From contig JAFLBR010000008.1 of the NCBI GenBank assembly GCA_017303795.1, positions 146,169 through 210,168 on the forward strand: 64,000 nucleotides of DNA, read 5' to 3'. The notes below the pieces were generated by a model that saw nothing but the letters and a program-made list of their open reading frames with translations, did not search any database and had not been told where the DNA came from. Positions 741-1,133 of the stretch are shown in pieces (position 1 is the first letter of the stretch; the number at the start of each line of letters is the position of its first letter). This DNA comes from Cytophagales bacterium. Lineage in GTDB: Bacteria; Bacteroidota; Bacteroidia; Cytophagales; Cyclobacteriaceae. Made by a program: the position numbers and the translations under genes.

Positions 741-804
741 TTGGAGCTGAGGGGTTCGAACCCCCGACCCTCCCGACTTATAAGTCGGGATGCTCAGAAC
801 CAGC
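741..804 (-). pseudogene. tRNA-Val-like remnant lacking most of its 5' side
   Basis: Positions 741-772 match the 3' acceptor and T arm of the nearby tRNA-Val (1059-1090) at 31 of 32 bases. Positions 789-804 match its D-arm/anticodon-arm junction at 15 of 16 bases. Between them the anticodon arm is replaced by a perfect 20-base palindrome (771-790), which would give a loop of 6 or 8 bases rather than 7. The 5' acceptor strand and half of the D arm are missing, and nuclease coding sequence occupies that place. It cannot fold as a normal tRNA. A relic or a captured 3' part of a tRNA gene is the simplest reading. Confidence 0.7.
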
Positions 805-1015
805 AAGCTTCTCAATTAATTTTCTGCTTTTCCATTTCTTTACTTCTCGCTCACGAGCGTAAGCTAAATCTTTGGTAGAAAAAGCTTCAGAGTAAACTAC
901 TTTCCAATCACTACCGCTTCCGGTAAATCCCTTAACGCTCTTCAAGCGGCTCAGTAGTGTGGCCGATATAATACTTGTTTCTCGTTTGACTGAACAGGAT
1001 GTAAAAGTGTGGCAT
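778..1015 (-). pseudogene. GIY-YIG nuclease family pseudogene abutting a tRNA-like remnant
   Basis: From ATG 1015 the frame reads [20 protein letters not shown], the N-terminal GIY-YIG motif (YIL then YIG), and continues to EPLEER, where it meets TAA. One base over, the frame continues [20 protein letters not shown] and then a Lys/Arg-rich stretch ending in GSEHPDL and a stop at 778. About eight residues of the usual loop after EERL and one base of frame are lost, so the gene is broken. These one-domain nucleases are about 80-90 residues long and are common in Bacteroidota, often beside tRNA genes. The last residues (GSEHPD) are encoded by the tRNA-like D arm, and the stop sits in the centre of the palindrome. 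Confidence 0.85.
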
Positions 1016-1023
1016 CAGTAAAA

Positions 1024-1055
1024 CAAAAAAACCTTGACTTATGCCAAGGTTTTTA
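1024..1055 (-). terminator. Terminator of tRNA-Val
   Basis: Inverted repeat AAAACCTTG / CAAGGTTTT with an 8-base loop, followed on the minus strand by a T-rich run. It lies directly downstream of the tRNA-Val 3' end. Confidence 0.8.
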
Positions 1056-1058
1056 AAG

Positions 1059-1133
1059 TGGGAGCTGAGGGGTTCGAACCCCCGACCCTCTGCTTGTAAG
1101 GCAGATGCTCTGAACCAGCTGAGCTAAGCTCCC
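1059..1133 (-). tRNA. tRNA-Val (anticodon TAC)
   Basis: A 75-base cloverleaf. The 7-base acceptor GGGAGCT pairs with AGCTCCC, with A as discriminator. The D arm contains AGCTGGTTCAGAGC; the anticodon stem TCTGC/GCAGA encloses loop CTTACAA, so the anticodon is TAC (Val). The T arm is GGGGGTTCGAACCCCT. CCA is not encoded. A clear promoter lies 16 bases upstream and a terminator lies just downstream, so this is an intact single-gene unit. Confidence 0.97.

Follow-up and report, generated by a model that had tools for sequence, protein, structure and literature searches.

The tRNA-Val locus of the window, by which we mean the whole 64,000-nucleotide stretch analysed here, is probably, though by no means surely, what is left, after decay, of a small homing-type element, free-standing, that sits at a tRNA gene and has duplicated one of its ends. 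This reading draws on sequence comparison: on the observed layout, strand bias, spread, empty and occupied sites, correspondence of isoacceptor and hairpin site with nuclease clade, and pairing within an anticodon-site hairpin. The small GIY-YIG genes that adjoin tRNA genes are apparently a widespread and undescribed family, for which the phage nuclease SegB appears to be the nearest known system; no description of hairpin-split tRNA duplicates with GIY-YIG genes on chromosomes was found in the open-access literature, which took in neither preprints nor most subscription papers.

The original prediction of an intact tRNA-Val beside a second, partial copy was confirmed (Table 1), the copy being identical to the intact gene at 31 of 32 bases at 741-772 and at 15 of 16 at 789-804. 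Among the 16,572 remaining 32-base windows on the two strands of this sequence, none matched the tRNA better than 21/32, so the 31/32 match is not due to chance. Neither ARAGORN nor Rfam calls a tRNA in the partial copy, and the intact tRNA-Val(tac) is the sole tRNA-Val among 33 distinct tRNAs at the source-genome loci, where tRNA and palindrome counts were taken from searches and fetched stretches. At the place of the anticodon arm the predicted palindrome is present and perfect, and the TAA stop codon of the ORF starts from its dyad. It had also been proposed that the tRNA D arm encodes the nuclease tail GSEHPD: this stands for GSE and two bases of the H codon, which belong to the D-arm part of the copy, and fails for the remainder of GSEHPDL, which is coded by the palindrome. 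The nuclease is decayed as foreseen, its two frames meeting at a break after EER, and compared with the intact nuclease of L208, at the orthologous locus, it lacks a short segment with the conserved His-Asn and carries a frame shift. Searched separately, each ORF piece gives 22.9 bits with PF01541 against a cut-off of 22.6, and the L208 ORF gives 59.6 bits (E 3.9e-16). The Y, Y, G, R, HN and E columns are invariant across 11 relatives, and we take Tyr, Arg, His/Asn and Glu to be the catalytic residues of GIY-YIG nucleases. The terminator hairpin past the copy is presumed to be the original tRNA terminator, and the L208 equivalent of the hairpin between tRNA and ORF sits within the repeated unit. 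The window ORF lies outside any intron (Rfam) or intein, as befits a free-standing nuclease. A group I intron was rejected for the window, where RF00005 covers the tRNA end to end and Rfam finds no intron core (no RF00028 at E 0.1). So was a tRNA-targeting integrase island: in the window and L208 the GIY-YIG ORF stands alone between tRNA and copy, with no integrase gene.

Table 1. Features of the tRNA-Val locus and its flanking genes, in window coordinates
Feature	Position	Strand	Basis
Downstream flanking gene, AsmA family	2..634	-	PF05170 39 bits
Terminator hairpin past the partial copy	710..734	-	inverted repeat; position
Partial tRNA-Val copy: D-arm 3' part, hairpin for anticodon arm, variable region, T arm, 3' acceptor strand	741..804	-	
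Perfect 20-bp palindrome TCCCGACTTATAAGTCGGGA in place of the 17-base anticodon arm	771..790	-	
GIY-YIG ORF, C-terminal part, second frame, ends AGSEHPDL within the tRNA copy	778..945	-	ORF list; PF01541 E 1e-4
GIY-YIG ORF, N-terminal part, frame 1 (MPH...EER), stop after EER at 932	932..1015	-	ORF list; PF01541 E 1.1e-4
Terminator-like hairpin and T run between tRNA and ORF	1024..1051	-	sequence reading
Intact tRNA-Val(tac)	1058..1133	-	ARAGORN; RF00005 71.1 bits
Upstream flanking gene, DJ-1/PfpI family	1183..1788	-	PF01965 70.5 bits

Alignment with relatives showed the tRNA-Val site to be occupied in some and empty in others. With the DJ-1/PfpI neighbour gene as query in 58 genomes of the genus, we examined 22 loci, comparing species rather than strains, and found this flanking gene at empty and occupied sites alike. 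Occupied sites are those of the window, L208 (with two tandem units), L194, L201 and L197; the contigs of L194 and L201 end soon after the start of the ORF, and in L197 the strand of the tRNA, compared with that of the neighbour, is reversed, while the copy has hairpins in both the anticodon and T arms. Eight loci are empty, with a tRNA-Val and neither ORF nor copy seen: L196 and L199 have both flanking genes and the tRNA oriented as in the window, L192, L193 and L205 have both flanking genes and the tRNA on the other strand, and L190, L191 and L195 have the upstream flanking gene only. By tblastn the AsmA-type neighbour was confirmed in L192, L193, L196, L199 and L205, and was not confirmed in L190, L191, L195 or L208. 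L202 has a tRNA-Val with no GIY-YIG ORF in the next 420 bases, and no tRNA was seen in 8 of the 22 loci. As a separate observation, the tRNA-Val strand is flipped relative to the DJ-1/PfpI gene in L192, L193, L205 and L197 (around 2130-2640), in three of them by a local inversion between the same neighbours. Elsewhere, L218 and L222 have the element in common and upstream flanks that cannot be aligned, which is suggestive, but other pairs share their flanks, and the want of a clean recent transfer among the pairs compared counts against homing.

How often do small GIY-YIG ORFs adjoin tRNA genes? We assembled 74 such ORFs from the genus, 34 at loci returned by searches and 40 taken down the match list, the rows skipped including tandem neighbours and matches near contig ends. 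A tRNA gene lies within 700 bp in 48 of the 74 and within 150 bp in 43, ORF and tRNA share a strand in 48/48, and in 39 the far side of the ORF has a partial copy of the tRNA that is anchored at its end. The same test gave 0/20 for long GIY-YIG ORFs of 592-627 residues, whose length, together with the L005 sequence, marks them as UvrC-like. A second sample, of 80 named loci from many phyla, is the best 80 of 225 confirmed in one scan with alignment A3, which was built from three tRNA-adjacent ORFs and so biases the sample towards such genes; an alignment of 11 ORFs was too diverse for use as a search query. Here 63/80 lie within 700 bp of a tRNA, all 63 on its strand, and 53 have anchored copies (60/77 and 50 once three loci repeating the genus sample are removed); L084 and L011 are apparently different units of one array in one genome. 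Pooled after dereplication, the nearest tRNA is on the ORF strand in 108/108. The predicted association of nuclease and tRNA copy is thus repeated in the genus sample and in the 80 named loci, against 0/20 in the control. Of the 17 named loci with no tRNA within 700 bp, three are explained by tmRNA or an intron-bearing tRNA and 14 have no tRNA explanation, several of them being short or cut; the genus sample has 26 loci without a tRNA, and an Rfam scan of 20 of these returned two tmRNAs. When the best GIY-YIG hit was taken from each of 30 genomes across the phylum, 8/30 were near a tRNA (8/8 on the same strand, four with copies) and 22/30 were away from tRNA genes, and among 25 relatives on viral contigs four were near a tRNA (4/4 on the same strand), one with a copy. 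Set against the first two samples, these counts indicate that the strength of the tRNA link differs between lineages of the family, from strong to weak or absent, and many small GIY-YIG genes do something else. The source genome itself has eight PF01541 matches. At tRNA-Leu(gag) (L001), tRNA-Met (L004) and tRNA-Leu(caa) (L006) a GIY-YIG ORF is accompanied by a palindrome-split copy of the same tRNA, and L002 and L003 have tRNA and ORF with no copy found. Split copies adjoin eight different tRNAs among the source-genome tRNA loci scanned; for those at Phe, Thr, Gly and Ser(tga) the search of that genome gave no nearby PF01541 match.

The units come in two arrangements. Type A, seen in the window, has the order tRNA, ORF, 3' copy, and type B has the order 5' copy, ORF, tRNA; among 89 dereplicated copies 39 are type A and 50 type B. 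The copies are usually broken by a hairpin in the D, anticodon or T arm. A perfect palindrome with an arm of at least six bases lies at the copy break in 29/53 of the named-locus copies against 78/4000 random positions, and with mismatches allowed a stem score of 7 is reached in 61/92 copies of the two samples pooled against 98/1104 random positions, and a score of 8 in 39/92 against 30/1104. These counts are the program's, whose strict detection misses some hairpins visible by eye; many of the remaining copies show longer or imperfect ones, and in L112 a single pseudo-tRNA appears by eye to have hairpins in its D, anticodon and T arms.

To follow the clade of the window nuclease, we searched 345 genomes of the class with the intact L208 ORF, and 36 of them gave matches. 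Twenty-four of the 29 L208-type loci examined have a tRNA within 700 bp, and 17 have program-detected copies; the 24 tRNAs are Val(tac) (15), Ala(ggc) (3), Arg(tct) (2), Pro(ggg) (2), Arg(acg) (1) and Glu(ttc) (1). Time and again the hairpin stands in place of the anticodon arm, between ..AGAGCA and GGGTC, even at some Arg and Pro tRNAs, and a hairpin identical to that of the window occurs in L339, which belongs to another family. Such repeated alteration of one arm agrees with the original prediction that the anticodon region would be the target. We aligned 16 copies, namely the 20 found minus L340, L354, L358, L363 and the second L208 unit, plus L337. Hairpin stem cells are 96.4% paired, with two-sided changes in three of the seven pairs, but the hairpins had been pre-selected for at least five outer pairs, so that only the two inner pairs are free of selection bias; in these, 3 and 4 cells show two-sided changes, and 1 and 3 cells are unpaired. 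When hairpin and T arm are taken as one, two-sided changes occur in 27 cells against a shuffled mean of 7.9 (0/500), but the number of further pair types does not exceed that of the shuffled data (233/500).

Putative target specificity, read from isoacceptor and hairpin position, tracks nuclease phylogeny. On a tree of the 89 dereplicated nucleases the isoacceptor requires 45 changes against 72.3 when shuffled (0/500 as low) and the hairpin arm 23 against 40.3 (0/500 as low); shuffling the arm within isoacceptors gives 30.0 changes (1/500 as low). Type A or B requires 15 changes against 19.7 when shuffled within isoacceptors (15/500). Since the trees rest on 77-79 columns and leave many forks open, single branches are not to be trusted. 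In an Arg(tcg) clade of Flavobacteriaceae, inspection by eye places the hairpin after position 32 whether the unit is type A (L090 and L111) or type B (L093, L109 and L130); the program's type A edge of 28 in this clade results from a chance match. For an Arg(acg) clade the hairpin position is 22.

Where does the copied tRNA end come from? It had been suggested that the element carries a replacement tRNA part, and this is unsupported as a rule. Across 84 partial copies the mean identity is 0.985 to the intact tRNA of the same host and 0.739 to tRNAs of the same isoacceptor in other hosts, and the own-host tRNA is the best match for 66, ties for 18 and is worse for none; the terminal 12 bases alone give 0.980 against 0.729, with the own tRNA best for 58, tied for 25 and worse for 1. 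Part of the gap is a product of the method, because anchoring favours the tRNA of the same host. Host-like copies point to a resident gene that was duplicated, or homogenised later, and away from a donor part, and they would argue against a simple carried-replacement form of homing, which predicts donor-specific copies whereas these appear host-specific. The exception is L093 (2416-2816), where the intact tRNA-Arg(tcg) has the D-stem GTTC/GAAT and the displaced copy GCGC/GCGC, so that the change is compensated; GTTC/GAAT recurs in L092 and L120. The idea that intact tRNAs are generally recoded and so evade cutting was set aside, because L093 alone of 12 Arg(tcg) loci compared shows this.

How might such a unit spread? 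It comprises, in the mechanism that we favour, a single ORF of about 80-100 residues (the GIY-YIG catalytic domain) and the duplicated end of the resident tRNA gene. We infer a cut by the nuclease within one arm of the resident tRNA or tmRNA gene, followed by a repair that would copy the ORF in and duplicate the tRNA end, so leaving one whole tRNA, upstream in type A and downstream in type B. The hairpin in the displaced copy would mark the arm presumed to be cut, and may abolish the copy both as a tRNA and as a target. Strand bias, insertion at conserved essential genes, empty and occupied sites, clade specificity and intron-linked relatives fit free-standing homing endonucleases, and intronless homing is described in the available part of one account (PMC3984707). 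More tentatively, and with a likelihood somewhat short of even, the loci may define a bacterial mobile element of a new class, spread over many phyla, in which a single-domain GIY-YIG nuclease targets essential single-copy tRNA or tmRNA genes, duplication of the end of the resident gene leaves one tRNA whole and so keeps the host alive, a palindromic hairpin marks the cut site, and lineages are specialised by isoacceptor and arm. Against homing stand the intact tRNA, which would still contain the presumed cut site, and the scarcity of carriers. The L208 ORF had no tblastn match at 1e-5 among 50,697 phage records, so that the window type has none in this phage collection; the ORF of L016 matched one uncultured phage, and the one plasmid match, 38% identical, is named yazA. 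With so few matches, and a tRNA copy in only one of the 25 viral-contig relatives, carriage by phages or plasmids was rejected; the phylum-wide sample, with 8/30 near a tRNA, also weighs against homing.

Could the same loci arise in other ways? The nuclease might instead drive segmental duplication, breaks near tRNA genes giving a tandem tRNA segment plus nuclease, with extra copies decaying and movement rare. Tandem arrays (two units in L208, three in L011), doubled copies in L120, L130 and L152, and the resemblance of copies to their own host's tRNA suit this account, and SegB does so in phage T6, according to the part of the source available (PMC13096335). We nonetheless think it unlikely, for it leaves unexplained both the hairpins of most copies and the isoacceptor-specific nuclease clades, some of which cross phyla. 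A slightly smaller chance attaches to the hairpins themselves being the mobile units: palindromic repeats (TCCCGAT.., CCTGCCTG..) would enter tRNA-like loops with the GIY-YIG protein as mobiliser, by analogy with RAYT proteins, which mobilise REP repeats. Copies without an ORF bear hairpins too, and the palindrome CCTGCCTGCCGGCAGGCAGG is common to copies from Bacteroidota, Patescibacteria and Chlorobiota, being identical in Bacteroidota, Peregrinibacteria (L100), Paceibacter (L104) and Chlorobiota (L101, L102). The source genome has TCCCGATNNNNATCGGGA at 26 exact places; measured against its 34 tRNA matches, eight of these lie no more than 60 bp away, but 18 do not. The CCTGCCTG palindrome is commoner in sampled Bacteroidota genomes with at least four GIY-YIG hits (11/59) than in those with fewer (1/58), although the genomes were unmatched for phylogeny and one of the 12 was richer in reversed-control than in pattern hits. 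Mobile hairpins would also leave the tRNA duplication itself unaccounted for, and hairpin position follows the phylogeny of the nuclease.

Less probable again is a domesticated system acting at the RNA level, in which the hairpin-armed pseudo-tRNA would be the RNA partner or control of a nuclease made from the tRNA promoter; examples would be action on foreign tRNAs, or a limit on nuclease output when RNase P trims the tRNA. The uniform same-strand placement is what it would predict, and the pairing of the anticodon-site hairpin is kept through two-sided changes. Its third support is the ORF stop codon, which falls inside the tRNA in 28 of the 63 loci whose nearest tRNA is downstream; these stops are mostly TAG, at tRNA positions 8-10 (12 loci) or 21-23 (10 loci). 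However, the decay in the window, the empty sites in close relatives and the tandem arrays look selfish, and the Val loci have a terminator between tRNA and ORF. The original prediction had noted small GIY-YIG genes running into tRNA genes as an annotation oddity. That the tRNA fragments and nuclease genes are unrelated, through misannotation or chance, now has hardly any probability: a broken ORF in the window, and tRNA reading frames that in some cases are open by chance, would suit it, but the counts far exceed an oddity, and the controls (108/108 on the same strand, 0/20 for UvrC-like ORFs, 0/9 for small DUF559 loci) refute it.

Among known systems, the homing reading finds its closest parallel in SegB of T-even phages, a free-standing GIY-YIG homing endonuclease near tRNA genes of many isotypes that is tied to duplication of tRNA segments (PMC13096335). 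The likeness lies in a GIY-YIG gene adjoining tRNA genes and in breaks linked to tRNA-segment duplication; SegB is phage-borne, and the part of the source available does not describe hairpin-split tRNA copies for it (PMC13096335). The present loci, by contrast with SegB as described, are chromosomal and mostly have one ORF of 80-100 residues per tRNA. Endonucleases that are encoded by group I introns and directed at the anticodon region of tRNA genes were reportedly characterised by Bonocora and Shub in 2001. They too target tRNA genes, and the ORFs of L098 and L115 adjoin an intron-bearing tRNA-Thr, but the window is intronless and the other ARAGORN-called tRNAs are contiguous, often with a partial copy across the ORF. 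Paquin and others (1994) are said to have found a hybrid atp6 gene with an endonuclease ORF in Allomyces; there, too, a nuclease ORF lies in an essential gene and a displaced gene end is left behind, but the gene is a mitochondrial protein gene with a foreign replacement part, unlike the host-like copies here. Fungal double-hairpin elements are mobile hairpins. REP repeats are short palindromic repeats, on the available part of one source, and offer a second comparison for mobile hairpins (PMC12306157). Both resemble the present palindromes as short GC-rich palindromes dispersed in the genome, whereas the present ones are enriched inside tRNA copies beside GIY-YIG ORFs. Genomic islands integrate at tRNA 3' ends. 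They likewise leave an intact tRNA on one side and a partial duplicate on the other, but the unit here spans a few hundred bases, contains one GIY-YIG ORF and shows no integrase, and 50/89 copies duplicate the 5' end.

If the homing reading is correct, a large part of the small GIY-YIG family in Bacteroidota and Patescibacteria, with several members per genome in the genus, would be selfish elements on tRNA genes, and would exemplify a natural homing element that attacks an essential gene yet keeps it functional. It would account for odd tRNA pseudogenes and for ORFs whose stop codons fall in tRNA genes, the hairpin position of each clade would predict its cut site, and the family would be a source of compact nucleases with tRNA-gene specificity.

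Targets other than contiguous tRNA genes were also encountered. A tmRNA lies directly upstream of the GIY-YIG ORF in L027 (1035-1430) and L228 (1035-1817), and in L228 a copy of the tmRNA 3' end stands on the far side of the ORF; in L146 (2820-3139) it lies downstream, and no copy was found there. The intact tRNA-Thr(tgt) of L098 (2746-3053, Nomurabacteria) and L115 (2543-2932, Omnitrophota) holds a group I intron, the layout being a hairpin-split tRNA 5' copy, the GIY-YIG ORF and the intron-bearing tRNA-Thr. Some further observations stand by themselves. L158 (2751-3294, Neomarinimicrobiota) has a hairpin-type insert in a tRNA-Leu copy, with a DUF559 nuclease gene between inverted-repeat ends; DUF559 nucleases as a general second ORF type were rejected, as none of nine small DUF559 loci examined in the genus has a tRNA. 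L081 (1500-1519) has a palindrome-split 3' piece of tRNA-Cys and no intact tRNA called in flanks of 1.5 kb. Where TCCCGATAGCTATCGGGA occurs at a distance from tRNA genes (L069/L070; L077/L078, palindrome 1501-1518), its copies have flanks that seem common by eye, so this palindrome sits in other repeats too. One Bacteroidota genome has eleven CCTGCCTGNNNNCAGGCAGG palindromes in about 32 kb (G064:C2:1200428-1232722). On one viral contig (L165, 480-704) a related GIY-YIG ORF lies 78 bp from a tRNA-Lys(ttt), part of which is repeated on the other side of the ORF.
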